Assembly: GCA_913020735.1 (NCBI GenBank)
Contig: CAJWBN010000002.1
Coordinates: forward strand, 1-46,913
Length of the DNA: 46,913 nt
From: an uncultured Acidimicrobiaceae bacterium
GTDB lineage: Bacteria > Actinomycetota > Acidimicrobiia > Acidimicrobiales > Poriferisodalaceae
Direction of reading: 5' to 3'
A model generated the notes under the pieces. That model ran no database searches and was not told the origin of the DNA. It saw only the letters and a list, made by a program, of their open reading frames with translations. Positions 1-42,587 of the stretch are shown here, in pieces. The translations under genes were made by a program, and so were the position numbers. How positions within the stretch are numbered: the stretch's first letter is position 1; every line of letters starts with the position of its first letter.

Positions 1-531
1 TTGCATCATGCGCAATATCTGCCCATCATCCGAATAGACGCGTCCCGGATAAGCCATGAACATTTTGAAGCTTGTGACTCCTTCCTCGACGAGTAGGTCC
101 ATTTCTTTTGGTGACTGTTTGTCCACATTGGCAACCATCATGTGAAAGCCATAATCGACAGCGCATTCGCCGACAGCATCTTCTCGATGTCGTTCGTATC
201 CGTCTGGAAGTCGTTCGTCATCGGACATATAAGCAAAATCGATGATGGTCGTCGTTCCGCCAAAAGCCGAAGCGATAGTACCCGTCTCAAAAGTCTCTAG
301 AACTGGTGCAATTTGTCCGGTGGCTTGTAGATGAGTGTGGGCGTCAATCCCGCCCGGGACAACCAATTTATTTTCAGCGTCTATAACTTGATCTGCGCCT
401 GCAGAAAAACTTTGGGAAAGATCAGAGTCAGGGTGTACTACCCCAACAACGGTCTCATCATCTATCAAGACATCAGCCTTAACTGTGTCTATTGCGGTCA
501 CAACGGTTCCGCCCGTAATTGCAGTTCTCAT
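1..531 (-). CDS. hydA: Dihydropyrimidinase / D-hydantoinase, N-terminal part (runs off left edge)
   Basis: Cyclic amidohydrolase that would open dihydrouracil, dihydrothymine or 5-substituted hydantoins to N-carbamoyl products in the cytoplasm. The first 177 residues are visible. They carry the metal-binding motif GGIDAHTHL (His65, His67) and the segment GVTSFKMFMAY, whose Lys156 is the expected carboxylated metal-bridging lysine, followed by the usual Tyr161. Both sit where the hydantoinase family has them, so this is the catalytic cyclic amidohydrolase and not a DHP-like inactive paralogue. The ATG at 531 lies 9 bases after the nitrilase stop and is preceded by a purine-rich AAGAGAGAAAA. 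It is the last visible gene of a six-gene minus-strand run starting at 6344. The C-terminal two thirds lie outside the window, so substrate and stereo-preference cannot be judged. Confidence 0.92.
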   Translation of the reverse strand, partial: MRTAITGGTVVTAIDTVKADVLIDDETVVGVVHPDSDLSQSFSAGADQVIDAENKLVVPGGIDAHTHLQATGQIAPVLETFETGTIASAFGGTTTIIDFAYMSDDERLPDGYERHREDAVGECAVDYGFHMMVANVDKQSPKEMDLLVEEGVTSFKMFMAYPGRVYSDDGQILRMMQ

Positions 532-540
532 TTTTCTCTC

Positions 541-1371
541 TTATGACGCCGTGAGGTCGTCATACATCTCTGGTCGTCGATCACGCCAGAACGGTAAGTC
601 AACTCGCGTGGCTTGTAATGATTCGAGGTCTAGGTCAGCTAGCAGCACTTCCTCTTCTTCCCCAGCCTCAGCAAGTATCTGTCCATAGGGGTCACAAAAA
701 TAGCTATGGCCGTAAAACTCATTGGGGCCTGTTGGTTCTTTCCCAACCCGGTTACTTGTTGCAACGAAGTACCCGTTCGCGACCGCGTGTCCGCGTTGTT
801 CTAGGTGCCAATACTTTTTTGATCGTCCGCCTGTTGCCGATGGAATAAATACAATTTCGGCTCCATTTTTCCCTAACGCGCGCGCTCCTTCAGGGAAGTG
901 GCGGTCATAACAGATATATACGCCGATACGAGCAAACTTGGTTTCGAAAACTGGGAAACCGGTGTTGCCAGGTTTGAAATAATATTTTTCGCGGTAGGTC
1001 TTGCCGTATGGGATATGGGTCTTTCGATATCTGCCGAGGTAATTGCCATCGGCATCAATCACCACAGCGGTGTTGTAGTAAAAGTTGTCGTCTTTTTCGA
1101 ACAATGGCACCACCAAGACCGTGCCAAGCTCTCTCGCTAAAGCCATCATTTCTATGGTTGTCGGCCCTTCGGGAACCGGTTCAGCTAAATCAAACCATTG
1201 ATCGGATTCGTCTTGACAGAAATATGGTCCCGTAGCTAATTCTTGTAATCCGATGATTTGAGCGCCTTGCTGCGCTGCATCACGAATCAATCGCGTTTGT
1301 TGGGCGATCATTTCTTCTCTCGGACTTATGCCGGTGGTCTGGATCAATGCACATTTGACAGTTTGGGTCAT
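541..1371 (-). CDS. Nitrilase-superfamily amidohydrolase, beta-ureidopropionase / N-carbamoylputrescinase type
   Basis: Carbon-nitrogen hydrolase of 276 residues that would hydrolyse an N-carbamoyl amino compound (N-carbamoyl-beta-alanine or similar) to amine, CO2 and ammonia. The catalytic triad is visible: Glu44 in LQELATGPYF, Lys117 in RYRKTHIP and Cys154 in YICYDRHFPEG. Length and motif spacing fit the N-carbamoylputrescine/beta-ureidopropionase branch. The start at 1371 overlaps the stop of the upstream luciferase-like gene by 4 bases and the dihydropyrimidinase starts 9 bases downstream, so all three are probably co-translated. In that setting the beta-ureidopropionase role (last step of reductive pyrimidine breakdown) is the best guess; N-carbamoylputrescine amidase is the main alternative. 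Confidence 0.88.
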   Translation of the reverse strand: MTQTVKCALIQTTGISPREEMIAQQTRLIRDAAQQGAQIIGLQELATGPYFCQDESDQWFDLAEPVPEGPTTIEMMALARELGTVLVVPLFEKDDNFYYNTAVVIDADGNYLGRYRKTHIPYGKTYREKYYFKPGNTGFPVFETKFARIGVYICYDRHFPEGARALGKNGAEIVFIPSATGGRSKKYWHLEQRGHAVANGYFVATSNRVGKEPTGPNEFYGHSYFCDPYGQILAEAGEEEEVLLADLDLESLQATRVDLPFWRDRRPEMYDDLTAS

Positions 1372-2432
1372 CCCACCCCTCCATGTTTTTTAAGATTTGC
1401 TTTACCTGCAAGCTGGTCCAGGGTCTCAAATGCGTCTGTCCCGAGCGGCGTAATAACGCCTTCGGTGCACCCATGGTCATTCCATTCGACCATTTTGTCC
1501 AATGCTTGTGAGGTTGTGCCACATGCCGCAACCCGTTGTGTCAGTTCATTAGATACCAGGGCCATTCCTCGTCTGATGTCAGCCTTTGTTGCTGGCCATC
1601 CAAGAGTTTCCTGGATTCGGGCGACAAGCTCTGGCTCAGCGCCGCAAAATTCAGCTATGTGAGGCTGCTGAGCAATGTATTGAGTGAGGAATTCTTTGCA
1701 GTCATCAATCGCCTTTTGAGGTTCTTTGTCATCTACTGAAGCAGCTATTAGTTGCGGCACATCGAAATCATTCATCGATCGCCCTGAGATTTTGGCGCCC
1801 CGACGAACTGCTTCCATAGCTAAGTCGTTGTATGACGGTGGAACAAGGAAATCAAGCAACACACCATCTGCTATCTCACCAGCTAGCTGACACATGCCCA
1901 TCCGAACCGCTCCGATATAGATAGGTACCGGGTAAGAATGTCCATCATCATCGGTTGGTCCATCAAATTTGACTTGATCGACGTCAACAAACTCACCTTT
2001 GTAGGTGACTTCATCACCTCTCAGCATTCCTTTAACGACGGTGATGACTTCACGCATAGCTTTTAATGGTCGGTGATTGGGCAAACCACAGCGAGTCGCT
2101 AGTGGTTCCCACCATCCTCCTAAACCAAGTCGCATTCGACCTGGGGCTAGGTCGTCGAGCGTTTTCCATGTCACCGCAAGAAGTGCAGCGTTTCGCGTCC
2201 GATACGGAAGGATGCCGCTTCCAATATTGATTTGCTTTGTGTTAGCGGCAATGAGGGAAATGGCGACAACAGCATTTGTAGCGAGTCGACCTTCACCAAC
2301 CCACACCCCTCTAAACCCATGTTCTTCAGCCCACTGGGCCTGACCAACAATGGAGCCAAATCCACCCGGAAGATCTGGGCCGCCTGCGCGTCTCGGGGCT
2401 CCCGAGGAGATCATCAATCCTAGATCGATCAC
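1368..2432 (-). CDS. Luciferase-like (LLM) flavin/F420-dependent oxidoreductase
   Basis: A 354-residue luciferase-like TIM-barrel protein of the bacterial luciferase / F420-dependent methylene-H4MPT reductase superfamily. Visible family features are the N-terminal strand followed by QAQWAEEHGFRGVWVGE, the [22 protein letters not shown] block, and PVPIYIGAVR with GEIADGVLLDF. The start is a GTG at 2432 preceded by a strong Shine-Dalgarno (GAGGGGGAG, 6-base spacer). It is clearly paralogous to the gene at 18634-19671. Cofactor (F420 or FMN) cannot be read from sequence alone. Its 4-base overlap with a ureidopropionase-type nitrilase and its position upstream of a dihydropyrimidinase suggest it supplies the ring-reduction or ring-oxidation step of the same pathway (inference). 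No classical dihydropyrimidine dehydrogenase is in the window. Confidence 0.87.
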   Translation of the reverse strand: MIDLGLMISSGAPRRAGGPDLPGGFGSIVGQAQWAEEHGFRGVWVGEGRLATNAVVAISLIAANTKQINIGSGILPYRTRNAALLAVTWKTLDDLAPGRMRLGLGGWWEPLATRCGLPNHRPLKAMREVITVVKGMLRGDEVTYKGEFVDVDQVKFDGPTDDDGHSYPVPIYIGAVRMGMCQLAGEIADGVLLDFLVPPSYNDLAMEAVRRGAKISGRSMNDFDVPQLIAASVDDKEPQKAIDDCKEFLTQYIAQQPHIAEFCGAEPELVARIQETLGWPATKADIRRGMALVSNELTQRVAACGTTSQALDKMVEWNDHGCTEGVITPLGTDAFETLDQLAGKANLKKHGGVG

Positions 2433-2451
2433 GGTTCTCCCCCTCTTTCAT

Positions 2452-3840
2452 TTAGCTTATGTCACCTTGGCGCAGTGCCTTCGTGAGTTTCTCTAGCGAT
2501 TGAGCATCAATAGTTGATTCGATGATTGCCGCGAGTTGAGGATTTGCGCGTCCTGCGGTAAGTCGAGCAAATTTTTGGCTTAGCTCATCAAAATTTAAGC
2601 GGTCATGCATAGAACCTTTTTGGCCATGAACTGTTTTGGTTAGCTTTGACCCATCAACGAGAGTGATAGTGATTCGGCCTCCCATTTTCCATGCGTAGGT
2701 AGCTTCGAATTCTTCGGCGTAACGGATAGACAGAACTTTGGATTGCATCGCAGCGAGACTCGGGTCAGAAATGCGTTCTTCTCTATAGGTGTCAGGGTCT
2801 GACGGATCGGAAACCAAAGCTGCAGCAATATTGAACTGAGCAGAATATTGAGCAGCCATTACCGATGCCGTTCCGTCCATATCATTTTGGGTAACGGCTT
2901 TAAGAGGTGCTTCAGCATGGATTTCTTGCACATCCTCAGCTTGGATGTCGTATTCCAGTCGAAGCTGGGTCGCTGCCTGAATTAACGGGTGAATATCGCT
3001 GCAGGCTGCATAGGGTTTAACGGTTATTTCATCCATCATCCACCGGGTTCCGAGATCTTCGGTCAGGAGCTCAGTTTGTGGTTCATCCGAGAAGACTCGA
3101 CAGAATCCGTATCGTCCCGCGAGCCCGTCTTCTGGGCCTTCGAAACCGCGTGCTGCGAGTAATGCAGCCGTCAAGCCACCCTCGGCTGCTCGACCAGCGT
3201 GCAAGCGTTTGGTCATGCCTCCCGAAGCAACGAATTCCATGGTTCCTGATGCCATAGACGACGCTATCCCGAATGCGTGATTTAGCTGGATCTCATCAAA
3301 ATTCAAAAGACAACTAGCCGCTGCCGTAGCTCCGAACACACCAGACATTGAGGTTGGATGGAATCCCGAAAGCATGTGGCTGACGGGTCCGACGGCAATT
3401 CCTGCACGCCCCATCGCTTCATAACCAATGACAATCGCTTCAAGCAGTTCGCGGCCACTCCGATTGAGCTCTTCCGCTAGGGCGAGAGCAACGGGAACAA
3501 CGACAGCACCTGGGTGGTTAATCGCTTCTTCATGCACATCATCCAGCTCAAATGCATGTGCCGATGTTCCATTTGCTAAAGCTGCCATTACTGGATTTGC
3601 ACTTATTCCAGAGCTACCAACGACAGTGGATTTGCCCGTCGAATTCAACGAAAGCGCGTGATCAATTACAGCGCGAGCCCACGGCAACCCACACCCAAAA
3701 ACCATTGCAGCAGTCGTATCTGCAAGTCGGTAGTGCGCTAAATCAAGAAGTCGGGAATCTATTTTATTTGCTAGCTCCACTAAAAAGCGGCTTAGCTCGG
3801 CAGTGGGACTTGGCGAGTTATGGGAGGTCCGCGAGGCCAT
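2452..3840 (-). CDS. MmgE/PrpD family protein
   Basis: About 462 residues of the MmgE/PrpD superfamily, which includes 2-methylcitrate dehydratase, cis-aconitate decarboxylase and iminodisuccinate epimerase. Recognisable family segments are LADTTAAMVFG near the N-terminus, GTSAHAFELDDVHEEAINHPG, and GFHPTSMSGVFGATAAAS. The ATG at 3840 was chosen because longer starts (up to 3924) would extend far into the aminotransferase gene; the chosen start still overlaps it by 23 bases. In other bacteria PrpD-like genes often accompany hydantoinases and amino-acid racemases, which fits its neighbours. A role in isomerising or dehydrating a ring-cleavage product is possible. The exact reaction is unknown and methylcitrate metabolism is not supported by any neighbour. 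Confidence 0.85.
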   Translation of the reverse strand: MASRTSHNSPSPTAELSRFLVELANKIDSRLLDLAHYRLADTTAAMVFGCGLPWARAVIDHALSLNSTGKSTVVGSSGISANPVMAALANGTSAHAFELDDVHEEAINHPGAVVVPVALALAEELNRSGRELLEAIVIGYEAMGRAGIAVGPVSHMLSGFHPTSMSGVFGATAAASCLLNFDEIQLNHAFGIASSMASGTMEFVASGGMTKRLHAGRAAEGGLTAALLAARGFEGPEDGLAGRYGFCRVFSDEPQTELLTEDLGTRWMMDEITVKPYAACSDIHPLIQAATQLRLEYDIQAEDVQEIHAEAPLKAVTQNDMDGTASVMAAQYSAQFNIAAALVSDPSDPDTYREERISDPSLAAMQSKVLSIRYAEEFEATYAWKMGGRITITLVDGSKLTKTVHGQKGSMHDRLNFDELSQKFARLTAGRANPQLAAIIESTIDAQSLEKLTKALRQGDIS

Positions 3841-4930
3841 CGACAAGTCGATCCATGTGTTGTTGAAAATTGACATCACAGCGAAGAAAACGGTCTTCGA
3901 GGCCCCGGAAAGACACCGAGCCATCTTTTACAACTACGCCGCGTTCCAAAAGACCTTCAAAAACTTCAGTCGAATTGATCTCTGAATCGAGGATCTCAAC
4001 CAGAAAAAAATTGGAATGGCTGTTACTAATCATTCGAAATCGATCAAGGTCATCAAATCTCGTTTGCACGTAGTCCCGATTATTCATGATGGTTTTTACT
4101 GTCGTTTCAACATGCTGATCATCGTCAAGAGCTGCGATCCCTCCCACAATCTGTAACTGACCCATATTCCAAGTGGGTTTCACAGCCAACAGACTCTCAA
4201 TGATTTGGGGATGGGCGATACCGAAACCAATTCGCAGCCCAGCCAAACCAAAGGCCTTCGAAAAGGTGCGAAGCACGACAAGGTTTTCGTATTCGTGAGC
4301 TAATGAGATGTAGCCGGCCGTATTTGAATAGTGCACATAAGCTTCATCGAGCACAACTAGTGAGTTGGGTGCTGATTCGATGATGCGTCGAACTTCGCTT
4401 TCTTCTAACCAGGTGCCTGAAGGGCTGTGTGGATTCGTGATGTAGACGACTCTCGTGTCGGATTGAATCGCCTCGATGTAAGTATCAACATCTATTGCCA
4501 TCGACTGTCGATCAGTTGCTTCGTGGACAAGGACTGGAAGTCTGCCTTCTGCTTCAGCGAACAGGTGGTAAATCGGAAAGCAGGGACCTGGCATCTGTAT
4601 CTTGTCGCCTGGCGGACAAAACGCTCTTGTGATTAGCGAAAGAATTTCTGTTTCCCCAGACCCACAAATCACTTGGGGGTATTCAAATCCATATTTAGCA
4701 GCGATCTTTTGACGCAATGAATCAGCAGTCCAAGAGGGATATAGATGTAAAGCTTCGAGATGTTCCTTTACCGCTTGTTTTGCGAGCGGAGACGCCCCGT
4801 GTGGATTTTCTGCAGATCCGAGCTTGGCGATCTCCTCAATTGGGATTCCGTAACGCTCGGAGACGTGATCCGCAGATAAACCCGGAACGTAGTACTCAGG
4901 AGCTTGTAACCCAGGATGAGATCGCAGCAT
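3818..4930 (-). CDS. Class I/II PLP aminotransferase, HisC-like
   Basis: A 370-residue fold-type-I aminotransferase resembling histidinol-phosphate aminotransferase. Seen in sequence: the substrate-region segment LGSAENPHGASP near residue 40, GSGETEILSL, the ITNPHSPSGTW block with its conserved Asn-Pro, VVLDEAYVHYS (PLP-binding Asp and Tyr), and the Schiff-base lysine in RTFSKAFGLAGLRIGFG. It starts at the ATG at 4930, 43 bases after the amidohydrolase stop, and overlaps the PrpD gene by 23 bases. No other his genes are nearby, so it probably works in the catabolic operon, for example transaminating an amino acid released by the ureidopropionase or hydantoinase steps. HisC activity itself cannot be excluded. 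Confidence 0.88.
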   Translation of the reverse strand: MLRSHPGLQAPEYYVPGLSADHVSERYGIPIEEIAKLGSAENPHGASPLAKQAVKEHLEALHLYPSWTADSLRQKIAAKYGFEYPQVICGSGETEILSLITRAFCPPGDKIQMPGPCFPIYHLFAEAEGRLPVLVHEATDRQSMAIDVDTYIEAIQSDTRVVYITNPHSPSGTWLEESEVRRIIESAPNSLVVLDEAYVHYSNTAGYISLAHEYENLVVLRTFSKAFGLAGLRIGFGIAHPQIIESLLAVKPTWNMGQLQIVGGIAALDDDQHVETTVKTIMNNRDYVQTRFDDLDRFRMISNSHSNFFLVEILDSEINSTEVFEGLLERGVVVKDGSVSFRGLEDRFLRCDVNFQQHMDRLVDGLADLP

Positions 4931-6416: not shown

Positions 6417-7919
6417 ATGAGTCGTCCACTGGCAGTTTTTGATGATTTTGATCCGGCAGGCGAAAAATCGTTTTCTAACGCTGTGACGCGTTTTCGTGAA
6501 CGCAATATTGTGCTGCCACGGTTCAGCGAACTACGAGACCCTTCGACATTCGATCCGAACCTTCTCGATGCGTTAGCGAATGTCGCTCCCGATGATGCTG
6601 ATCCAGTAAATCTTTACCGTGTTCACTGGTTCAATACACCTAATCAAGCAACACCTGCAGCGGTGCCCGATCACATTGAGTTACCGTCCGAGTTAACTGG
6701 AACCGACGCAAGAATTGTTGTTGCTTTAGGAAACCGCTTTCCAATGATTGGAGCGCACAAAGTACTTGCTGCGTATTCCTGTTTGGTCGCGCGTCTTGTT
6801 ACTGGACGCTTTGATCCCACCATTAATCGAGCTATTTGGCCGTCGACTGGTAACTATGCACGAGGGGGAGTTGCGATATCCAAAATCATGGGGTGCCGCG
6901 GAGTAGCTGTGCTCCCTGAAGGGATGAGTCGAGAACGATTCGAATGGCTAGATCGATGGATCGATCATCCGGAAGATGTCATTCGCACACCTGGTACTGA
7001 GGCAAACGTCAAAGAAATTTATGATGAGTGTGGCCGTCTTGAAGCCGACGAAACAAACGTGGTTCTTAACCAGTTCAGTGAATTTTCAAATCACTTAGGC
7101 CATTACGCAGTAACTGGACCAGCGCTTGAATCAATTTTTCATGAAGTGACATCCACTCGGAGTGGTCGACTCGCAGCTTTCGTTTCAGCTTCGGGGTCTG
7201 CAGGGACTTTAGGAGCTGGTGATTATCTTAAGGACAGCCACAAAACTCGAATCGTCGCTGTCGAAGCGCTCGAGGTGCCAACAATGCTTTACAACGGATT
7301 CGGTGATCACAACATCCAAGGCATAGGGGACAAGCACGTACCTCTTATACATAACGTCACGAATACCGATCTCATAGTTGGTATTTCAGATAACGCAACT
7401 GACCAATTAGATGTTGTATTTAATAGCCCAGCGGGCCTGCGCGCGTTAGAAGGTCAAGGCATCGATCCCGAACTGGCGTCTCTACTTACCAATTTGGGTT
7501 ATTCATCCATATGCAACATATTGGCTGCCATAAAAGCCGCAAAACATTGGCAACTTGGCGAAGAAGATGTGATTGTCACAGTCGCTACCGATGGGTCGGA
7601 GCTCTACAACTCAGAACGCGAAAAAGTCATGCGTAGAGACTTCGTCGAAGGGTTCGACGACGCTGAAGCCGAGATCGCTTTGGCAACACATTTGTATGAC
7701 CTAGACACTGATCACGTACTTGAAATGGACAAAACAAATAGAGACCGTGTCTTTAACCTCGGCTATTTCACTTGGGTTGAGCAGCAAGGAATTTCTATAG
7801 ACGACTTCGAGCGGAGAAGAAGTCAGTCTTGGTGGAACGATTTACGCCCCCTCATTGAGAAATGGGATAATCGCATTAGCGAATTCAATGAGGCAACTGG
7901 AGCAAAGCACCGCCAGTGA
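6417..7919 (+). CDS. Fold-type-II PLP-dependent enzyme, uncharacterised 500-residue family
   Basis: A cytoplasmic PLP enzyme of the cysteine synthase/threonine dehydratase fold, 500 residues and therefore longer than the usual 300-400. The probable Schiff-base lysine is Lys115 in IGAHKVLAAY. PSTGNYARGG (about 146-155) is the asparagine loop that binds the substrate carboxylate, and SASGSAGTLGAGD fits the glycine-rich phosphate-binding loop. The C-terminal extension of about 100 residues after VTVATDGSELY has no motif I recognise. I recall this GAHKV/STGNY family as unnamed PLP proteins near purine and selenium-associated molybdenum hydroxylase genes, but no reaction is established to my knowledge. 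It is first in a four-gene operon; the next PLP gene begins within or one base after its end. A lyase acting on a diamino- or ureido-acid from ring cleavage is a reasonable guess only. Confidence 0.83.
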   Translation: MSRPLAVFDDFDPAGEKSFSNAVTRFRERNIVLPRFSELRDPSTFDPNLLDALANVAPDDADPVNLYRVHWFNTPNQATPAAVPDHIELPSELTGTDARIVVALGNRFPMIGAHKVLAAYSCLVARLVTGRFDPTINRAIWPSTGNYARGGVAISKIMGCRGVAVLPEGMSRERFEWLDRWIDHPEDVIRTPGTEANVKEIYDECGRLEADETNVVLNQFSEFSNHLGHYAVTGPALESIFHEVTSTRSGRLAAFVSASGSAGTLGAGDYLKDSHKTRIVAVEALEVPTMLYNGFGDHNIQGIGDKHVPLIHNVTNTDLIVGISDNATDQLDVVFNSPAGLRALEGQGIDPELASLLTNLGYSSICNILAAIKAAKHWQLGEEDVIVTVATDGSELYNSEREKVMRRDFVEGFDDAEAEIALATHLYDLDTDHVLEMDKTNRDRVFNLGYFTWVEQQGISIDDFERRRSQSWWNDLRPLIEKWDNRISEFNEATGAKHRQ

Positions 7920-7920
7920 C

Positions 7921-9024
7921 GTGACTGAGACTAATCCTTTCGTCCTGTACCGAGATCGTCTCGAATCTTATGAGCGAGCAACCGCGGCCGGATGGAGCGA
8001 TCAACAATTTGTTGACCTGGTTTCAAAGCTGGATGAAGAGATCCAAAAAGTTGACGGCGTGGGATTTTCGGTCACCCCAGTACTTGACGGCAGCCAGCTA
8101 GCAGCTGCACTTAACTTAGATATAGACCTCAGAGTGAAGGTCGAAATCAACTCAGTGGGCGGATCACACAAGGCCAGGCATCTTTTTGGTGTTGCCCTCC
8201 ATCTCGCAATTGAAGGTGCCATTAAAGATTCATCCAAAAGATCTCTAGCAATCGCGAGTTGCGGTAACGCTGCAATAGCAGCATCAATTATCGCGAAAGC
8301 AATCAATTACCCAATTGAAGTCTTTGTTCCTACTTGGGCTGACAAACCTTCCATAAATTTACTTCGAGAACTCGGCGCACAAATCCAAATCTGTGAGTCA
8401 AATCCAGACCAGAAAGGTGATCCTTGCTACGCATATTTTAAGAACGCCGTAGCTAAAGGTTCTCATCCCTTTGGCGTTCAGGGGACCGACACACCTGGAG
8501 CTTTCGACGGAGGTAGAACTTTGGGGTGGGAACTTCATGACCAAGTTTCAGATCTAAATACTGTCTTCGTCCAGGTGGGGGGTGGAGCTTTAGGTACTGC
8601 AACAGCACGAGCTTTACCTGATGTTGCTATCTATCCAGTTCAGGTGGAAGGTTGCGCTCCTCTCAAACGTGCTTGGGATTTGTTAGCTCCAGATTTCGAT
8701 ATGACAAAAGCCGCTGCTTCACCAGAAAGCTTTATGTGGCCCTGGGATCAGCCCGCTAGCGCAGCTTCTGGTCTACTTGACGACATCACCTACGACTGGA
8801 TACCTCTGTCACAAGCCACTCTGGACAGCGGAGGCCATCCAATAGTCGTCTCAGAGGAAACTCTCATTGAAACCCACCGCGTTGCCACTAGCGTTACTGG
8901 ACTAAATGTTTCTTGTACAGGGGTAGCAGGACTCGCGGGGTTGGTAGAAACCTCCCCTAAAAATAGATCAGTTGTAGGGGTTTTGTTTACAGGCGTTGAT
9001 CGAGAACTCGAGGTGGCAAAATGA
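7921..9024 (+). CDS. Fold-type-II PLP-dependent enzyme, threonine synthase/dehydratase-like
   Basis: About 367 residues. The PLP lysine is expected at Lys84 in SVGGSHKARHLFG, followed by IASCGNAAIAA (the asparagine loop) and VQVGGGALGTA (phosphate-binding glycine loop). The GTG at 7921 begins one base after the upstream TGA; an ATG at 7888 inside the upstream gene would add 11 residues and is an alternative start. It belongs to the threonine-synthase/diaminopropionate-ammonia-lyase fold but lacks clear specificity motifs. Two dissimilar fold-II enzymes back to back, directly before xanthine-dehydrogenase genes, suggests consecutive or paired reactions on an amino-acid product of purine-ring breakdown. 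Family membership is secure; the substrate is unknown. Confidence 0.83.
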   Translation: MTETNPFVLYRDRLESYERATAAGWSDQQFVDLVSKLDEEIQKVDGVGFSVTPVLDGSQLAAALNLDIDLRVKVEINSVGGSHKARHLFGVALHLAIEGAIKDSSKRSLAIASCGNAAIAASIIAKAINYPIEVFVPTWADKPSINLLRELGAQIQICESNPDQKGDPCYAYFKNAVAKGSHPFGVQGTDTPGAFDGGRTLGWELHDQVSDLNTVFVQVGGGALGTATARALPDVAIYPVQVEGCAPLKRAWDLLAPDFDMTKAAASPESFMWPWDQPASAASGLLDDITYDWIPLSQATLDSGGHPIVVSEETLIETHRVATSVTGLNVSCTGVAGLAGLVETSPKNRSVVGVLFTGVDRELEVAK

Positions 9025-9098
9025 TTAATTTTAAAAATGTCCCACTTATTAGATTCCCTCAATCTCGCGACGAAAGAAGATGGGCTTTCACAAAATGA
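9021..9098 (+). CDS. Possible 25-residue coupling peptide
   Basis: A tiny open frame whose ATG overlaps the stop of the upstream PLP gene (ATGA at 9021-9024). Its TGA (9096-9098) overlaps an in-frame ATG (9095) of the downstream FAD/2Fe-2S gene, again as ATGA. It encodes 25 residues, basic and without a membrane segment (begins MINFKNVPLIRF). This back-to-back arrangement would let ribosomes pass across the otherwise untranslated 55-base gap. No homology is known to me, and chance is a real possibility at this length. Confidence 0.3.
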   Translation: MINFKNVPLIRFPQSRDERRWAFTK

Positions 9099-10555
9099 CC
9101 GCTGTTAAAGGGTCTCTGCACGAATCGCAGTTATTAGGGACCCGAATCAAGGAAATCCTTCGACCTACAACTTGGTCTGAAGCAGTTGAAATATATGGGA
9201 CACTTCCCAACGCTTTGCCCGTCGCTGGGGCTACTGACCTTTTATTGGATCTATCCCGACGCGCCGATGCTGGCCAAAGCCCACCGGTAACCCTCATAGA
9301 TCTCTGGGGGCTCCAGGATTGCTCACATATCACCCTCGACGCCGATGAAGTAGTGATCGGATGTGGGGTAACACATAACCAGATAATTGATGCTTTGGAT
9401 CTAGACCCAGCTCTCAACATTCTTCGTATGGCATGTCTAGAAATTGGTGCGCCCCAACTTCGAAACCGAGCAACCGTCGTTGGAAACATCGTCACAGCAA
9501 GCCCAGCTAATGACACTATTTCAGCTTTGATATCTCTCAACGCGAATGTGCTTATCGAATCTATTCACGGAACACGCGAAGTCTCAATCAGAGAGTTCTT
9601 TCCCGGATTTCGACAGACAACATTAAGAGAGTCAGAGCTAGTTCGTTCTATAAAAATACCTAAATGGGGACCCCGAACAGTTGGAACGTGGTTCAAAGTA
9701 GGCAACCGAAATGCTCAGGCAATATCTGTCGTACACGCTGGAATTGTTCTTAAGTTTGACGAATCAACATCATCTATCACGAAAGCTGATGTCTCAATTG
9801 GGAGCGTGTCTGAAACCGTCACCGTGTCAAAAGCGGTCAGCGACTACCTGATTGGCGAAGAACTTAACGTCGAAACATCCGCTACTGCAGCTCGAATCGC
9901 TGCGAACGAAATATCACCAATCGACGATCTCCGCGCGAGTGCCGTCTATCGGACAGCGGTTACAGAGACTGCTCTCCGTCGCGCGTTGATAAACCTCTCG
10001 AAATTTTCCACACTTCAACCCCGGAGTACCCCATTATTGGGATGGGTTTCTGCACGACCAACCCCTCCTCAGAAAGCTCTGTCGACAACTACGTCGGTGT
10101 CTTGCACGATCAACGGCTCAAACGTCGCTGCCGAAATCGGTGACCACTCAACACTTCTGGAATGGTTGCGTGCCAATGCTTCCACCGGCACAAAAGAAGG
10201 CTGCGCTGAGGGTGAGTGTGGCGCGTGCACGGTCCAACTGAATGGTGCCGCAGTAACAAGTTGTCTTATCCCAACTGCACAAGCAGATGGAGGTTCGGTT
10301 GTAACAGTCGAAGGACTAGCTAACGGACAAAATCTTCACCCCGTCCAAACAAAATTCTTAGATAAATTCGCTGTCCAATGCGGATTTTGCACGCCTGGTT
10401 TTCTCGTTGCAGCTGCTTCTCTGTGCGACGAAAACGACTCGCCGTCAGACGAAGATATTCAGGCCGGACTTGCCGGCAATCTATGTCGATGCACTGGGTA
10501 TTACTCCATAGTTGAAGCTCTAAACGGTTTATCAGTCAATAGCGAGTCAAGCTGA
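9080..10555 (+). CDS. Xanthine-dehydrogenase-type FAD subunit fused to 2Fe-2S subunit (FAD first)
   Basis: A 491-residue electron-transfer subunit of a molybdenum hydroxylase. Residues about 30-310 form a CoxM/XdhB-type FAD domain (LPVAGATDLLLDL; RNRATVVGNIVTASPANDT). Residues about 340-485 form a CoxS/XdhC-type two-cluster ferredoxin with GCAEGECGACTV and a later cysteine for cluster one, and QCGFCTPGF with NLCRCTGYY for cluster two. The usual fused order (eukaryotic XDH, XdhA) is 2Fe-2S then FAD; here it is reversed. The start is ambiguous: ATG 9080 has only a weak purine run, and ATG 9095 overlaps the stop of a possible coupling peptide. Its TGA overlaps the next gene's ATG (TGATG), giving tight co-translation with the molybdenum subunit. 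Confidence 0.92.
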   Translation: MGFHKMTAVKGSLHESQLLGTRIKEILRPTTWSEAVEIYGTLPNALPVAGATDLLLDLSRRADAGQSPPVTLIDLWGLQDCSHITLDADEVVIGCGVTHNQIIDALDLDPALNILRMACLEIGAPQLRNRATVVGNIVTASPANDTISALISLNANVLIESIHGTREVSIREFFPGFRQTTLRESELVRSIKIPKWGPRTVGTWFKVGNRNAQAISVVHAGIVLKFDESTSSITKADVSIGSVSETVTVSKAVSDYLIGEELNVETSATAARIAANEISPIDDLRASAVYRTAVTETALRRALINLSKFSTLQPRSTPLLGWVSARPTPPQKALSTTTSVSCTINGSNVAAEIGDHSTLLEWLRANASTGTKEGCAEGECGACTVQLNGAAVTSCLIPTAQADGGSVVTVEGLANGQNLHPVQTKFLDKFAVQCGFCTPGFLVAAASLCDENDSPSDEDIQAGLAGNLCRCTGYYSIVEALNGLSVNSESS

Positions 10556-12792
10556 TGTCAGTCGGGACAACCCCTCAACGTATTGACGCAACCAACAAAG
10601 TCACTGGCTCGGCGACGTACCCAGCAGATCGTGTCCCAGAGAATGCTTTGCACGCAGTGGTGATATTCACCAACCAACCGCATGCACGCCTAGTCAATCT
10701 CGATCTCACTGAAACCCTTAAATCTCGCGGCGTTATCACCGTGGTCACTGCAGCCGATGTGCCCGTCAACGAGTACGGACTAACTCTGTTTGATCAACCC
10801 GTCTTCATTGGCCTCGATGACACCGGGCGGAGTTCAGTTCCTTGTGATGTGAGTCGATGGGAAGCCGACCACCTTGCAGTTGTAGTTGCCGAAAGCCTGG
10901 CCCAAGCTCGCGGCGCTGCATCTCTCATTAAATCCGAATGGGAACTGTTACCTCTAGTTTCTGATGTACGTGAAGCTCAATCTGATGAGGTTCTTGTTCA
11001 TCCCAACTCGACGAGCAACACGTACCACGAGCTTCGGATTCGCAAGGGAAATATTGCTGAAGGAATGCGGTCAGCAGACGTAGTCATAGAAGACACGTAC
11101 GAACTCCCCCATCAGGAACATGCCTACTTACAAGTGGAAGCTGCGACCGCTTGGATTGATGAGGAACAACGGGTAACTCTTGAAACCGGAGGCCAATGGA
11201 TTCACGAAGATCAAGAGCAAATAGCTCATGCACTCGACCTCCCCACTGAGCAAATCCGAGTTAAATACGCCGCAATTGGTGGAGCTTTCGGGGGCAAAGA
11301 AGACATGAGCTTACAAATCGTGATGGCCGTCGCCGCGAAGAAACTTAATGATCTGGGGATCATGCGTCCTGTCCATTGCAATTGGACTCGCGAAGAGTCC
11401 ATCGTTGGTCACCACAAGCGTCATCGAGCTACTGTCCATGCTCGCTTGGGTGCCACAGCAGACGGAACCATCACCGCTGTCGAGGCAGAAGTGTTACTTG
11501 ACGCCGGGGCCTACAACTATACGTCTAACAAAGTGCTCGGAAATCTTCACCTATCAGTCGCAGGGGCATACAACGTTCCAAATGCTCAAATAGATAGCAA
11601 GGCGATTTACACTCACAGCGTCCCTGGTGGAGCTTTTAGAGGATTTGGTGGCCCACAAGGCGCCTTTGTAGCCGAATCGCAAATAAACAAGCTGGCTAAT
11701 GAATTAGGAATAGATCCCTTAGAAATTCGCAGAAGAAATGCTCTCACCGATCTGTCTGATGGCATTACCCAGTCAGGCCTTCCTCTCGGTGTTGCTGTTC
11801 ATCGAGTCCTCGAAAAATGTGCCGAGAGGGCACCAGCTTCAGCTCCGTTGCCAGAGACAGCTCCATTCCAACCTGTTGCCTCGCTGCCACCTGAACTAGA
11901 CCAGTTAAAACGGGGCCGCGGTTATGCAGTTGGGATGAAGAATGTTGGCTTCAGTTTCGGATTCCCAGAAGCCTGCGAAGCTGATGTCGTTTTTCATGGT
12001 GACTTTGATTCGGATCGTCCCAACCGGATTGAGCTGTTTCACAGCGCTGCAGAAGTTGGTCAAGGTGTCCATACCGCTCTCATCCAAATGGTGGCCGATG
12101 CAGCAGACATCGATATCAGCAATGTTGACGCCACCTATAGCGATACTGCCACTAGCGGTGACTCAGGTTCAGCTTCAGCTTCGCGGTTGACATTCATGGC
12201 GGGCAATTCAGTGTTGGGTGCCGTGGAGGAAGCTGAAAAGGCGTGGGCTGATGGGGCCAGACCCGCTATGGGCCACTTTCGGTATAAACCACCAGCAACG
12301 GAACCACTCGATCCAGATACTGGAGTCGGGCAACCCAATTTTTGTTACGGCTACATGGCACAGGCTGTTGATCTAACTGTGGATGTCGGTACTGGGCACA
12401 TACGAGTAGACCGGGTGCTATCAATTCATGACGTCGGCAAGGCTATTCATCCTCAAATGTTAAAAGGCCAAATTGAAGGCGCCATTGCCCAGGCACATGG
12501 CTACACGCTAAGCGAACAGCTCGTCGTCGAGGAGGGAAGAGTTTTAAACCCTCGACTTTCCCAATATCTGATTCCCGGAATTGGCGATGTCCCTACCAAA
12601 GTTGAATGCTTAATATTGGAAGCAGCCGACCCTCTTGGACCCTGGGGGGCCAGGGGTGTTTCCGAAATGCCCTACATAACCTATGCCCCCGCAGTTACAG
12701 CAGCTTTGCACGATGCAACCGGGGTTTGGATGAATACCTTTCCTTTGACTCCATCGGTGGTTCTTGAACACTTACACGCTGCAAAGAGTTAA
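10555..12792 (+). CDS. Xanthine-dehydrogenase-type molybdopterin-binding catalytic subunit
   Basis: A 745-residue CoxL/XdhA-type subunit that would hydroxylate a purine or other N-heterocycle at a molybdenum centre. Seen: the N-terminal Ald_Xan_dh domain (RIDATNKVTGSATYPAD) and the Moco-contacting loops GGAFGGKEDMS, PGGAFRGFGGPQG and EVGQGVHTAL. Near the C-terminus is WGARGVSEMP, whose Glu corresponds to the catalytic glutamate. There is no AYRCxSLRQ-type CO dehydrogenase loop, so CO oxidation is not supported. It pairs with the preceding FAD/2Fe-2S fusion to make a complete enzyme. Its stop overlaps the convergent SsnA gene by 4 bases. Whether xanthine, hypoxanthine or another heterocycle is the substrate cannot be told from sequence. 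No XdhC-type maturation factor is in the window. Confidence 0.92.
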   Translation: MSVGTTPQRIDATNKVTGSATYPADRVPENALHAVVIFTNQPHARLVNLDLTETLKSRGVITVVTAADVPVNEYGLTLFDQPVFIGLDDTGRSSVPCDVSRWEADHLAVVVAESLAQARGAASLIKSEWELLPLVSDVREAQSDEVLVHPNSTSNTYHELRIRKGNIAEGMRSADVVIEDTYELPHQEHAYLQVEAATAWIDEEQRVTLETGGQWIHEDQEQIAHALDLPTEQIRVKYAAIGGAFGGKEDMSLQIVMAVAAKKLNDLGIMRPVHCNWTREESIVGHHKRHRATVHARLGATADGTITAVEAEVLLDAGAYNYTSNKVLGNLHLSVAGAYNVPNAQIDSKAIYTHSVPGGAFRGFGGPQGAFVAESQINKLANELGIDPLEIRRRNALTDLSDGITQSGLPLGVAVHRVLEKCAERAPASAPLPETAPFQPVASLPPELDQLKRGRGYAVGMKNVGFSFGFPEACEADVVFHGDFDSDRPNRIELFHSAAEVGQGVHTALIQMVADAADIDISNVDATYSDTATSGDSGSASASRLTFMAGNSVLGAVEEAEKAWADGARPAMGHFRYKPPATEPLDPDTGVGQPNFCYGYMAQAVDLTVDVGTGHIRVDRVLSIHDVGKAIHPQMLKGQIEGAIAQAHGYTLSEQLVVEEGRVLNPRLSQYLIPGIGDVPTKVECLILEAADPLGPWGARGVSEMPYITYAPAVTAALHDATGVWMNTFPLTPSVVLEHLHAAKS

Positions 12793-13841
12793 GGCATACC
12801 GTCAAGTTTCATAAACAAGCGTTGCGCTTGTTCAGCCGCTTTGGCTCGCACTTCGTACGGATCTATTTGAGTAGCCACTCCGTCGCTAAGGACGACTTGA
12901 CCGTCAATTTCCACAGATTCAGGTCGAATATTGGTATGAAAGGCAAGTCTCCATGGATCGATTGGTTCCTCAGACCAAATCACTCGATCTTGCAGGGCTT
13001 CGGGGACTAACTGATATCCACCTTCTAGCCATGCCCATGCCGTTTCGGGGGTTGCTGCGATGTCATGTTCTCGTGCCCGAGCGTACGCAACTCGAAACTC
13101 GTCAAGCATTGCAGCACCAATACCGTCAGTCCCTAAAGCAACGGGCAGCTTGAATCGTTGGGGTGCCGCATAACCAACTGAATTATTCATATTCGACCGC
13201 GGGTTATGAATAATTGTTCCCCGTAATTCGTGGTCATCTGGTAATTGGACACCATGAACCAAGAGCCAATTATCTTGACTTAAATCCGCTAATCGATGCT
13301 CTACACCCAGATCATCCACACCTTCTGCAACGTGGATATGAACACCGACTCCAAAATGAGCCGCCATCTCGGTTGCAGCTACAAGAGTCTCGTCTTCGCA
13401 GGTAAAGGCTGCATGTATGCCGACCATGCCACGCCTACCACTAGATAAAAACCTAGCGTTTTCTTCTAGGCCTCTTATTGCCCCATCCGGTCCATGGCGA
13501 TCAGTGACTCCGTAAGAACAAACTGAGCGGATCCCTATCTCCGCGCATGCGTTTGCAATTACATCCAGCGACCCTTCGATGGCGTTAGGGGATTCGTGAT
13601 GATCGATTATTGCCGTGGTGCCCGATTCGATCGCTTCGAGCGCCCCTAATTTTGCTGACCATTCCAACATTTCCAGATCTAGTGCTTGATCCAACCTCCA
13701 CCAGACAAGTTCCAAGATCTCCCGAAAAGATGAAGGCGTTCGTGGGGGGGCTGGCATTCCGCGAGCTAGCGAGCTGTATAAGTGATGGTGCGCGCATACA
13801 AGCCCTCTTGTCTCGTTTGGACGGAGATCAGTCAAGTCCAC
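12789..13841 (-). CDS. ssnA: SsnA-like amidohydrolase, N-terminally short
   Basis: An amidohydrolase matching SsnA, the aminohydrolase of the E. coli purine/selenium-associated cluster. Shared wording includes AHHHLYSSLARGM, WWRLDQALDLE, IDHHESP, HIHVAEG, NPRSNMNNSVGY and ALGTDGIG. The metal ligands are therefore present (His18/His20, the HIHVAE His, the TDG Asp). At 350 residues it is about 90 shorter than typical SsnA. It begins only about 15 residues before the first metal motif, lacking the N-terminal half of the beta-sandwich, and the C-terminal sandwich is also trimmed. The GTG start at 13841 overlaps the upstream molybdenum hydroxylase stop by 10 bases, leaving little room for a longer start that would not lie inside that gene. 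It is last in a four-gene leftward operon. A deaminase or ring-opening role on a purine derivative is inferred. Confidence 0.85.
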   Translation of the reverse strand: MDLTDLRPNETRGLVCAHHHLYSSLARGMPAPPRTPSSFREILELVWWRLDQALDLEMLEWSAKLGALEAIESGTTAIIDHHESPNAIEGSLDVIANACAEIGIRSVCSYGVTDRHGPDGAIRGLEENARFLSSGRRGMVGIHAAFTCEDETLVAATEMAAHFGVGVHIHVAEGVDDLGVEHRLADLSQDNWLLVHGVQLPDDHELRGTIIHNPRSNMNNSVGYAAPQRFKLPVALGTDGIGAAMLDEFRVAYARAREHDIAATPETAWAWLEGGYQLVPEALQDRVIWSEEPIDPWRLAFHTNIRPESVEIDGQVVLSDGVATQIDPYEVRAKAAEQAQRLFMKLDGMP

Positions 13842-16405
13842 GCGTCAGCCCGTTCACGGTTGGCTAAATTCCGTATTGGCAACTCGGTGGGCCAGGAATC
13901 ATCGTACGACCGCATGGCAGCAGCAACAGCTCCCGCCGTCGGGACCAAACCTATTTCTCCAACCCCTTTGATCCCATACGGTGAACCGGGCTGGGGGGAC
14001 TCGATAATGATGACATCGACTGGTGGCATATCTTTCGGTCGGATGATGTCCAGGCTTCTAAACGTTGTATTTGTAGGTCTTCCGGATGAGTCGGTTGGGA
14101 AGCCTTCAGTAAGTGCGTAGCCGAGACCCATGTGCACTGCTCCTTCAATTTGGCCTTCGCACAACATTGGGTTGACAGCACGACCGACGTCATGAGCTGC
14201 AACCACATTCCTGACTTCTCCATCATCTGGGTTAAGGACTACCAGTTGCGATGCATACCCAAAGGTTGAGTGAATAACCGGATTTTCCAAGCCTTCGCTG
14301 AGCGAATTAGTCCAATTAATTCGATAGCTGCCTTCGTAATCGAGACCCACTTGGCAACCGTCAAGTAATGCATTTCGGCAAGCGTCCTGAACTGCCCCGG
14401 CTCCCATAAGGGTGCCGCGACTTCCCGTCGTTTGCCCCGCACCCAATTCCCGAGTCGAATCAACTATTACCTTTATCTGTTCCGCCGCAACACCCAGTTC
14501 TTCGACTGCAACTTGGAGAGCGACGTTATGCACTCCTTGGCCCATCTCAGTCCAACAATGTCGAACTTCTACGGTTCCGTCTACCTCGAATCTGACGACG
14601 GCTTTTGCTATTTCATCAAAACCATTTCCAAGTCCTGAGTTTTTCAGGCCCAAACCAATTCCGACTGGCAACCCATCCTTGACTGCCTGGTCATATGCAG
14701 GTTTCACTGCGTCTAGACAAGCTCGAGCACCCAGGCACCCATCGTCCATTATCTGGCCGGGACCCCAAATGTCTCCAGGGTTCACGACATTGAGGGATCG
14801 CATTTCCCAGCCGCTGATACCAACTTTTTCGGCTAGCCGGTCGATTATGCCTTCCATAGCAAACTGAGCTTGGTTGGCACCAAAACCCCTGAAAGCGCCG
14901 CAGACCGAGTTATTAGTTCGAGCTGCAATCGCTTCAACATCTACAGCCTGGAGCACATAAGGACCAGTTGCGTGGCCAGCAGCTCGCTCTAGGACTTTCA
15001 TACCGACCGACGCGTAGGGTCCTGAGTCTCCCAACATTCTGGCTCGAAGGCCTGTCAGCTTCCCTTTTTCATCACACCCGGCTTCGTATGTCATTCGAAT
15101 CGGGTGACGCTTCGGATGCATAAGCAATGATTGCTCTCTAGAGAGCGTGATCTGAACGGGTTTTCCCAGGAGCCACGCAGATAACGCTGTGTGTACCTGA
15201 TTCGACATGTCCTCTTTACCGCCGAAGGCTCCACCATTACTTACAAGTTCAGTAGTAATTAGGGATGGATCAAGATCTAAAACTCGGGCAATGTCATTTC
15301 GATCATCCCAGATTCCTTGACCCCCGGTGTATACGTAAAGGCCTCCGTCGGTAGGTACTGCAAGTGTTGATTCAGGTTCCAGAAATGCGTGTTCAACTCG
15401 TTGCGTTTGGAAAGTTTCACTCACGACATGCGCAGATTGTTCCAAGACCGAATCAACATCTCCTCTCTGGTATGCAGATTTCGAAAGGATGTTTCCTTCT
15501 AGTCCCCAGACAGCATCTTCGTCACTATCGACAACTCTGACCGGGTCAGTCATTGGCTCATGGACTCGGCATTCGACCTGCACTAAGGCCGCTGCTTCCA
15601 CAGCTGTCTTTCGATCGTCAGCAACCACTACTGCCAGTACATCTCCCAGAAATGAAGTGCGGCCGCCTACTGGAATCATTACTGGCCAATCTTTGTGGAT
15701 TAATCCAACCCTGATTTCTCCAGGTATATCCGCTGCTGTGAAAACCCCAGCTACACCTTCTACCGACAACGCAGCTTGTACATCAATTGCGATGACATCA
15801 GCTCGTGCATGATCCGCCAACCTCAGCGCACCGTGGAGCAGGCCATCTACCCGCATGTCATCAATAAACGGTCGCACTCCAGCCGCTAAAACATCTGCTT
15901 CGTATTTAGTTCCTCGGGACCCAACACCTTTAGGCGGCTGTGGTTCTCTGTTCACTCCCGAAGCTATGTCCAGAATGGCATCGAGAATCTTGATGTACCC
16001 AGTGCATCTGCACAAATGAGCTCCGAGGTGGCGAGCTGTTTCGTCTCGGGTGAGAGCTTGGCCCTTTTTTTCTATGAGCGCTTTTGCCCGAACCAAAATC
16101 CCAGGGATACAAAAACCGCATTGCAGCGCGCCATGTGCAGCAAAAATATCGCAATAACGTTGAAGCTCTGCCTCGTCGAACCCCTCGAGTGTGGTGACAT
16201 TTTCGCCGTCAGTTCGTTCTAAAGAGGTTTGGCAAGCAACTCTGGCTTTGTCCCCGACTAAAACCGTGCACGCTCCGCACTGACCCGAGGGTGCACAGCC
16301 ATCTTTGGCTGAAATCACTCCAAGTTCATCTCGCAACGCTCCCAACAGGTGGTGGTGCGATTCAGAAACGCTCACCGGTTGGCCGTTCAATTGGAATGAC
16401 GTCAT
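13832..16405 (-). CDS. XdhD-type molybdenum hydroxylase (fused 2Fe-2S and molybdopterin domains)
   Basis: An 857-residue single-chain hydroxylase. Residues 1-160 hold two 2Fe-2S clusters (Cys37, Cys43, Cys46 in DGCAPSGQCGACTV; QCGFCIPG and HLCRCTGY). Residues about 180-850 hold the molybdopterin domains (GGAFGGKEDMS, GAFRGFGANQAQ, EMGQGVHNVAL, YGIKGVGEIGLVP with the catalytic Glu). The domain order without FAD and the FGANQAQFAMEG wording match XdhD and the family described as selenium-dependent xanthine dehydrogenase, which also co-occurs with SsnA. The selenium in that family is a labile cofactor, so no selenocysteine codon is expected and none is needed here. Selenium use is unproven because SelD, YqeB and YqeC are not in the window. 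The start overlaps the upstream carbamoylase stop by 4 bases. Confidence 0.9.
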   Translation of the reverse strand: MTSFQLNGQPVSVSESHHHLLGALRDELGVISAKDGCAPSGQCGACTVLVGDKARVACQTSLERTDGENVTTLEGFDEAELQRYCDIFAAHGALQCGFCIPGILVRAKALIEKKGQALTRDETARHLGAHLCRCTGYIKILDAILDIASGVNREPQPPKGVGSRGTKYEADVLAAGVRPFIDDMRVDGLLHGALRLADHARADVIAIDVQAALSVEGVAGVFTAADIPGEIRVGLIHKDWPVMIPVGGRTSFLGDVLAVVVADDRKTAVEAAALVQVECRVHEPMTDPVRVVDSDEDAVWGLEGNILSKSAYQRGDVDSVLEQSAHVVSETFQTQRVEHAFLEPESTLAVPTDGGLYVYTGGQGIWDDRNDIARVLDLDPSLITTELVSNGGAFGGKEDMSNQVHTALSAWLLGKPVQITLSREQSLLMHPKRHPIRMTYEAGCDEKGKLTGLRARMLGDSGPYASVGMKVLERAAGHATGPYVLQAVDVEAIAARTNNSVCGAFRGFGANQAQFAMEGIIDRLAEKVGISGWEMRSLNVVNPGDIWGPGQIMDDGCLGARACLDAVKPAYDQAVKDGLPVGIGLGLKNSGLGNGFDEIAKAVVRFEVDGTVEVRHCWTEMGQGVHNVALQVAVEELGVAAEQIKVIVDSTRELGAGQTTGSRGTLMGAGAVQDACRNALLDGCQVGLDYEGSYRINWTNSLSEGLENPVIHSTFGYASQLVVLNPDDGEVRNVVAAHDVGRAVNPMLCEGQIEGAVHMGLGYALTEGFPTDSSGRPTNTTFRSLDIIRPKDMPPVDVIIIESPQPGSPYGIKGVGEIGLVPTAGAVAAAMRSYDDSWPTELPIRNLANRERADAWT

Positions 16406-18569: not shown

Positions 18570-18633
18570 ATCTTTATTGAACCGATTCGCCCGCAAAATA
18601 GCTAGTGATTCTTCTTACCCTCAGATTTCGTTA
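18570..18633. promoter_or_regulatory. 64-bp divergent promoter gap
   Basis: Only 64 bases separate the leftward carbamoylase/molybdenum-hydroxylase operon from the rightward luciferase-like gene, so promoters must overlap. I see no clear Shine-Dalgarno before the rightward ATG at 18634; a leaderless or near-leaderless transcript is possible. AT-rich stretches (CTTTATTGAA, GCTAGTGATT) could serve as -10 regions, but none is convincing alone. Confidence 0.35.
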
Positions 18634-19671: not shown

Positions 19672-19822
19672 ACAAATTTTCCGCAACGTCGCCATAATTT
19701 AAAAGCTAATCACTTCCACGATTCAGCTTTACTAACTCTTTCTACAGTGGGCTCACCGCTCTCCCAGAATGTGACAAGATGCGGGGGTTCGAAGTCGAAA
19801 AATTAGAGATAGGGCGGTAGAA

Positions 19823-20902: not shown

Positions 20903-20926
20903 GTTAGTTAGCAATTAACAACACGA

Positions 20927-20963
20927 AGCGGCGCCGGCGAGGATTACCCACGTCGGCGCCGCT
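20927..20963 (+). terminator. GC-rich stem-loop between binding protein and ABC ATPase genes
   Basis: A perfect 10-bp inverted repeat, AGCGGCGCCG (20927-20936) and CGGCGCCGCT (20954-20963), with a 17-base loop. It is not followed by a T-run, so it is more likely an mRNA-stabilising or attenuating hairpin than a full intrinsic terminator. It lies 25 bases after the binding-protein stop and 32 before the ATPase start, as in many ABC importer operons where it sets the excess of binding protein. Confidence 0.7.
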
Positions 20964-20995
20964 AACGCGTTTGTGCAAAGCAGGTATTCCCATAA

Positions 20996-39134: not shown

Positions 39135-39139
39135 ATTGT

Positions 39140-41137
<1,998 letters not shown>

Positions 41138-41180
41138 TTATAGAGCTTCTCAACGCTTCTGAAGGAAAACGTCTCAGTTG

Positions 41181-42570: not shown

Positions 42571-42587
42571 TATTTTGACAAATCAGT

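Follow-up and report, generated by a model that had tools for sequence, protein, structure and literature searches.

A candidate F420-dependent luciferase-like reductase at the first step of pyrimidine degradation in Acidimicrobiales

Results

Gene content of the locus

The DNA analyzed here (the window, 46,913 nucleotides) is the left end of contig C2 in a metagenome-assembled genome (MAG) of an uncultured Acidimicrobiaceae bacterium (G000; 2.3 Mb in 173 contigs, 81% complete), whose relatives carry the label Acidimicrobiales. The window opens on a minus-strand run of genes, an apparent operon in the order 8-oxoguanine deaminase-like, HisC-like, MmgE/PrpD, a luciferase-like oxidoreductase (LLM1), a nitrilase (Nit1), and a dihydropyrimidinase that is cut by the contig end. 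The features are as follows.

1368..2432, minus strand: LLM1, a luciferase-like (F420-type) oxidoreductase, proposed F420H2-dependent pyrimidine reductase; GTG start, 354 amino acids, PF00296 at 183 bits
541..1371, minus strand: Nit1, a nitrilase-superfamily carbamoyl amidase, proposed beta-ureidopropionase (PydC role); ATG start, 276 amino acids, CN_hydrolase at 224 bits
1..531, minus strand: dihydropyrimidinase (PydB role), N-terminal 177 codons; TIGR02033 at 158 bits over 172 residues; remainder at G000:C4:1-889
2437..2445, minus strand: Shine-Dalgarno-like GAGGGGGAG ahead of the LLM1 GTG start, read from the sequence
2452..3924, minus strand: MmgE/PrpD family protein of the LLM1 operon (PF03972/PF19305); true start probably nearer 3840
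3818..4930, minus strand: HisC-like aminotransferase of the LLM1 operon; Aminotran_1_2 at 177 bits
4974..6344, minus strand: 8-oxoguanine deaminase-like amidohydrolase, first gene of the run; NF006055 at 570 bits, above the cut-off of 532

LLM1 and Nit1 overlap by 4 bases (ATGA at 1371-1368), and 9 bases separate the Nit1 stop from the dihydropyrimidinase start at 531. The coordinates of the open reading frames thus bear out the spacing given in an earlier sequence-only reading of this DNA, as well as its observation that genes assignable to steps two and three of the classical reductive route are adjacent, with a dihydropyrimidinase and a carbamoyl amidase in one cluster. The 8-oxoguanine deaminase-like gene could belong with the adjoining purine genes or could supply an isocytosine-type base.

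Only 177 codons of the dihydropyrimidinase lie ahead of the contig end, but another contig of G000 (C4) opens with 16 bases identical to the window end, in frame, and completes the gene. The joined protein is complete, with the HxH, Lys, His, His, and Asp motifs of the metal site. The fragment's 158 bits cover its third of the TIGR02033 model, and it matches a full-length copy in a family relative (G030) at 86%; the full-model score of 565 bits, against a cut-off of 393, belongs to a close full-length relative and not to the joined protein itself.

Nit1 retains the Glu-Lys-Cys triad of the nitrilases (E44, K117, and C154). Among solved structures, N-carbamoylputrescine amidase matches it best (225 bits), followed by 6mg6 and Drosophila CG3027 (168 bits). 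A polyamine route was rejected because the score against the AguB equivalog TIGR03381 (296.3 bits) falls below the cut-off of 410.25. A homolog of Nit1 is also present in PreT-PreA operons. The sequence-only reading had called this protein ureidopropionase-type, a fair description in view of the triad and the pathway context, but one that sequence leaves unproven, the nearest solved match being N-carbamoylputrescine amidase. From its context, we propose that Nit1 is a beta-ureidopropionase.

Fold and probable cofactor of LLM1

With 183 bits against a curated PF00296 cut-off of 27.9, LLM1 is a member of the LLM superfamily, which has 58 matches in G000. Its AlphaFold2 model (pLDDT, 88) aligns with LLM structures, and a comparison of folds places it nearer to F420-binding LLM enzymes than to RutA. 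The closest solved fold is that of Mer (F420-dependent methylenetetrahydromethanopterin reductase) with F420 (Z, 35.5; rmsd, 2.7; 317 aligned; 26% identity), as opposed to a Z of 24.9 for RutA. Mer, Adf, FGD1/2, and other F420 enzymes fill the first 15 rows by Z, and flavin monooxygenases come after them. Mer is also the closest solved relative by sequence (110 bits), but LLM1 scores below the cut-off of the Mer equivalog TIGR03555 (144.1 versus 348.7 bits) and has no methanopterin pathway context. It likewise scores below the cut-off of TIGR03842 (70.1 versus 295.45 bits), and no G000 protein reaches the 498.3 bits of the RutA model TIGR03612, LLM1 being absent from the matches to that model.

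The F420 genes searched for in G000 are present (cofD at 306 bits and npdG at 176 bits). Among the LLM1-bearing genomes, cofD occurs in 18 of 19, the sole exception being a 1.3-Mb assembly. In the loci examined below, npdG lies near the LLM1 homolog in 7 of 18 cases and cof genes do so in 4 of 18 (Streptomyces, Micromonospora, Leucobacter, and others). Homologs of NpdG have an established role in making F420H2 from NADPH. A supply of NADPH-derived F420H2 would favor the reductive direction, which is the direction that we infer for LLM1.

Conservation of the LLM1 neighborhood

Within G000 alone, the adjacency of LLM1 and the dihydropyrimidinase carries little weight, because an LLM gene is expected within two genes of a given dihydropyrimidinase with a probability of about 10% (58 of about 2,200 genes encode LLM proteins, the total being estimated from the 2.3 Mb); conservation across genomes counts instead. 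Six other genomes of the family contain LLM1 orthologs (72-85%). One of these (G030) has the same order of HisC, PrpD, LLM1, Nit1, and dihydropyrimidinase. In G008, G009, and G028 (and, in pieces, in G029 and G036), four NMT1/SsuA-type ABC genes lie between LLM1 and Nit1 and are followed by a class III aminotransferase and the dihydropyrimidinase, such that in the first three genomes the aminotransferase is part of the cluster. In G008 and G009, the cluster extends past the dihydropyrimidinase to a molybdopterin hydroxylase large subunit and a TenA-like protein (L041 1529-4483; L046 2075-5029). HisC and PrpD are kept beside LLM1 in G008, G009, G030, and G036. Such HisC-like and PrpD-like genes (window 2452-4930; L039 6643-10149; L042 8557-12042) adjoin LLM1 only in this family, and a 2OG-Fe dioxygenase accompanies them in G008 and G030.

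When 84,980 genomes were scanned with an alignment of LLM1 and its relatives, 80 loci were recovered. Those nearest to LLM1 (48-85%) were classed as LLM1-type, and context was counted in loci of at least 9 kb (n = 18), as was done by the same method for loci resembling LLM2, a related but separate protein of the window (n = 42). Hosts of LLM1-type genes include Acidimicrobiales, Nanopelagicales, Chloroflexota, Aeromicrobium, Nocardioides, Streptomyces, Micromonosporaceae, and Leucobacter. Of the 18 LLM1-clade loci, 17 contain a dihydropyrimidinase, 17 a nitrilase, 16 a class III aminotransferase, and 13 an NMT1 ABC transporter, and none contains purine genes. The LLM2-type loci, which are mostly from Chloroflexota, show the opposite spectrum: dihydropyrimidinase in 1 of 42, nitrilase in 3, class III aminotransferase in 1, NMT1 in none, but purine genes such as those for xanthine dehydrogenase and SsnA-like proteins in 28. 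The difference in the incidence of dihydropyrimidinase is highly significant (P = 8e-13, Fisher exact test), on a sample that is uneven and in which loci of related species are not independent; reference proteins served as tblastn queries for the neighborhood calls, some MAG contigs may be misbinned, and all of the evidence is comparative.

In the tree, the LLM1 group forms a clade apart from LLM2 (support, 98/94), and all of its labelled members lie in a pyrimidine context. Six positions separate the two groups almost completely (V45/Q, G48/S, E109/D, V176/T, D194/N, and F195/Y for LLM1/LLM2), and the LLM1 residues at these positions are candidate determinants of base specificity. Aeromicrobium flavum (L200) has two tandem LLM1-type genes, a further LLM gene, and a second nitrilase in a single pyrimidine cluster. 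Two loci, labelled Dehalococcoidia ANT-39 (L192) and Bifidobacterium breve (L250), contain Acidimicrobiales-like genes, and their contigs are probably misbinned or mislabelled.

Search for the classical first enzymes

When Escherichia coli PreA was used as the query against 39 genomes of the family, each genome yielded at most one match, and all of the matches were PyrD-like proteins with about 30% identity. The curated model for PreA (NF006183), which matches the E. coli control, had no match in G000 or in any of the 19 LLM1-bearing genomes. The sequence-only reading had named a PreA/PreT-type dehydrogenase just left of the window as the finding that would speak against it, but contig C4, which continues the window's left end, has no PreA or PreT among the genes after the dihydropyrimidinase, where an alkylsulfatase-like gene and then a sulfatase follow. 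In G000 and its six family relatives, no candidate for the first step other than LLM1 was found.

A second LLM clade in the same position

TIGR03842 (F420_CPS_4043, a hypothetical equivalog) is an LLM clade of its own that shares about 25-30% identity with LLM1 and occupies the same slot beside dihydropyrimidinase, nitrilase, and the NMT1 transporter. One genus of the family (g6) has no LLM1 ortholog but has a nitrilase, a dihydropyrimidinase, a TIGR03842 protein (593 bits against a cut-off of 295), and an NMT1 transporter in one run. Across the class, TIGR03842 is single copy in 87 of 296 genomes, as opposed to 0 of 14 control genomes. Of 40 neighborhoods, 35 contain a dihydropyrimidinase, 32 a nitrilase, 27 an MMSDH-type semialdehyde dehydrogenase, 26 NMT1 genes, and 23 a class III aminotransferase; PreA or PreT occurs in none of the 40.

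PreA itself was found in only 11 of the 296 genomes, nine of which belong to one family (f32). There it sits with PreT, and on long enough contigs the pair usually ends the run nitrilase, aminotransferase, dihydropyrimidinase, MMSDH, NMT1 ABC, PreT, PreA (e.g., L288). In another genome of this family (G264, locus L190), TIGR03842 replaces PreT-PreA within the corresponding gene set, and no sampled f32 genome has both PreA and TIGR03842. The probability of this split hinges on the size of the family, being 2e-5 for 18 genomes and 0.02 for 30. A class-wide exclusion between the two was rejected as statistically not significant, the clean split being confined to f32. From gene content, the exchange looks like a non-orthologous displacement, and this operon swap is our strongest argument that an LLM protein performs the uracil-reduction step.

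TIGR03842 is also linked to F420 by its neighbors. On plasmids of Leisingera caerulea and Paracoccus alcaliphilus, it is the last gene of cofG-cofH-cofD-cofC-cofE-npdG (L112, L113, and L121), a set that covers F420 synthesis plus the NADPH-dependent F420 reductase. The divergent neighbors in L. caerulea are a transhydrogenase, an aminotransferase, a Zn-dependent hydrolase, a hydA dihydropyrimidinase, and an NCS1 nucleobase symporter. A Kiritimatiellae contig (L255) has TIGR03842, cofG, cofH, an LLM2-type gene, cofD, cofC, and cofE together, bringing both reductase types to one F420 operon.

LLM2 and its purine island

The window encodes a paralog of LLM1 within a second gene cluster.

18535-19671: LLM2, related to LLM1 but separate, within the island at window 6417-24548

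The surrounding region (window 6417-24548) is probably a reductive purine (urate/yanthine) island. Its genes include two PALP enzymes, two xanthine-dehydrogenase-type sets, a deaminase, a nitrilase, an M20 carbamoylase, and a BMP/Nup-type ABC transporter. In Chloroflexota, purine clusters carry a PF00296 "putative F420-dependent" enzyme that replaces YgfK/UacX and has been proposed to be a yanthine reductase (PMC12507026, a 2025 study of reductive uric acid degradation). Like LLM1, that enzyme belongs to PF00296, is presumed to use F420, and is assigned the place of a dihydropyrimidine-dehydrogenase-like enzyme (in its case, YgfK/UacX); unlike LLM1, it lies in a purine context (xanthine dehydrogenase and SsnA) and is proposed to act on purines rather than pyrimidines, and LLM1 shows nearly fixed residue differences. 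The Chloroflexota LLM2-type loci form the sister clade of LLM1 in the tree, and both this clade and LLM2 of the window fit the published description. LLM2 probably catalyzes the equivalent reduction of a purine, and its island extends the proposal of an F420-dependent yanthine reductase to Actinomycetota.

Three haloarchaeal islands (L110, L115, and L119) resemble the LLM2 island. In a further haloarchaeal LLM clade (L111, L116, and L118), the gene lies with an M20 hydrolase and, variably, a cytosine permease, a dihydropyrimidinase-like protein, an aminotransferase, a methylmalonate-semialdehyde dehydrogenase, or an isochorismatase. These haloarchaeal proteins were considered as a third pyrimidine example but were not taken as main evidence, since the tree places them next to the purine clade and their neighbors differ in other species.

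Elsewhere in the window (36636-45448), apparent gyrA, gyrB, recF, dnaN, and dnaA genes, judged by eye, occur in a row, and the chromosome origin region seemingly lies inside the window.

Discussion

We consider it probable, on comparative sequence evidence, that this cluster specifies a reductive route of pyrimidine degradation (Pyd) in which an F420-dependent luciferase-like hydride transferase replaces the iron-sulfur flavoprotein dihydropyrimidine dehydrogenase (DPD). The cluster shares a dihydropyrimidinase and a predicted carbamoyl amidase with the Pyd pathway (PydA/PreTA, PydB, PydC, and PydD), and the same order of chemistry is expected; relatives of LLM1 also share the class III aminotransferase, the semialdehyde dehydrogenase, and the NMT1-type transporter. 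The cluster differs in having no PreA/PreT, its first step being assigned to an LLM protein of another family and free of iron-sulfur clusters. Known Pyd dehydrogenases belong to the dihydroorotate dehydrogenase family and use NADPH, NADH, or ferredoxin, and none uses F420 (PMC7332683). The suggestion in the sequence-only reading that the LLM gene fills the missing uracil-reduction step is supported by the contexts across genomes, by the swap of PreT-PreA for an LLM gene, and by the F420 biosynthesis operon at an LLM and dihydropyrimidinase cluster.

In the proposed route, NpdG (NADPH:F420 oxidoreductase), encoded elsewhere in the genome, would make F420H2. LLM1 would hold this cofactor in its TIM barrel and reduce the C5=C6 bond of the base (uracil, thymine, or a near analogue) by hydride transfer, yielding the 5,6-dihydropyrimidine. 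The dihydropyrimidinase, as judged by its family, would then hydrolyze this ring, producing N-carbamoyl-beta-alanine or the methylated equivalent, from which the nitrilase-type amidase may strip the carbamoyl group, leaving a beta-amino acid, CO2, and ammonia. In the relatives, the class III aminotransferase and the semialdehyde dehydrogenase would complete the route, and the NMT1-type ABC transporter would import the base. Each catalytic step is predicted from sequence comparison, as are the activity and cofactor of LLM1 and its candidate bases (uracil, thymine, or another).

LLM1 might instead use F420 to reduce a different N-heterocycle, such as a dioxopurine derived from a purine, a precursor of a hydantoin, or an unusual pyrimidine, with the dihydropyrimidinase serving as a hydantoinase. 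Such a substrate would accord with the purine clusters of the sister clade LLM2 and the yanthine reductase proposed for Chloroflexota (PMC12507026), with the presence of a dihydropyrimidinase inside the LLM2 cluster of one genome (G006), with the 8-oxoguanine deaminase-like gene that starts the LLM1 operon, and with the additional HisC, PrpD, and 2OG-Fe genes. However, xanthine dehydrogenase, SsnA, and diaminopropionate-lyase-like genes are missing from all 18 LLM1-clade loci, which carry the beta-alanine-type set, and genomes with both clusters have distinct gene sets for LLM1 and LLM2. We weighed a purine role because LLM2 is a paralog of LLM1, and rejected it as the principal explanation on context and the tree; another N-heterocycle as the substrate seems unlikely.

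It is very unlikely that LLM1 is an oxidative enzyme resembling RutA, dependent on flavin mononucleotide (FMN) and O2, and that the adjoining hydrolases serve another purpose. RutA is, as the sequence-only reading noted, a member of the same superfamily that acts on uracil, and its structures 6sgl and 6sgm contain uracil and thiouracil. But LLM1 is not among the matches to the RutA model, RutA was not detected in G000 at the model's cut-off, and Mer leads RutA by about 10 Z units; moreover, a RutA-type product would need no dihydropyrimidinase, and npdG and cof genes occur near LLM1 homologs. On these grounds of model score, structural ranking, and gene context, RutA-like oxidation was rejected. 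That one of the 58 LLM genes has come by chance, with an unrelated function, to lie in a hydantoinase/carbamoylase operon would fit the 10% expectation within G000 but is scarcely credible when the same neighbors accompany LLM1 homologs in Acidimicrobiales, Chloroflexota, Nocardioidaceae, Streptomycetaceae, Micromonosporaceae, and Microbacteriaceae, as opposed to a dihydropyrimidinase in 1 of 42 loci of the sister clade.

Several observations weigh against F420-dependent pyrimidine reduction by LLM1. The direct swap of PreTA for an LLM gene was seen for TIGR03842 and not for LLM1, and PreA and TIGR03842 are not anticorrelated across the class, with two genomes (G128 and G225) having both against 3.2 expected (P = 0.52). 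Seven of the 24 genomes with an LLM1-type gene have TIGR03842 as well; in these, the two proteins may divide substrates (uracil versus thymine or a rarer base), or LLM1 may be redundant. In addition, a plain uracil pathway has no use for the HisC-like and PrpD-like genes, and G000 is a MAG that is 81% complete.

We lean toward a broader interpretation, in which two unrelated LLM clades, LLM1 and TIGR03842, independently became F420H2-dependent uracil/thymine reductases that replace DPD in F420-making bacteria, one of them travelling with its own operon for F420 biosynthesis and F420H2 regeneration in Alphaproteobacteria. Together with the LLM2 purine reductases, they would be the luciferase-fold counterparts of DPD and YgfK, the corresponding pair in the iron-sulfur flavoprotein fold. 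The type of pathway is known, but this variant of enzyme and cofactor appears to be unreported: in line with the novelty anticipated by the sequence-only reading, the open-access literature searched, which leaves subscription papers and preprints outside its coverage, contained no report of an F420/LLM uracil reductase, of a function for TIGR03842, or of a connection between deazaflavin and pyrimidine catabolism.

If correct, this interpretation would provide the first function for TIGR03842 and LLM1, which are widespread families of the F420 type, and would predict a simple, soluble uracil reductase free of iron-sulfur clusters. It would also account for the synthesis of F420 by Alphaproteobacteria and would explain the use of pyrimidines without the known dehydrogenase in many actinobacteria, Chloroflexota, and some Rhodobacterales.

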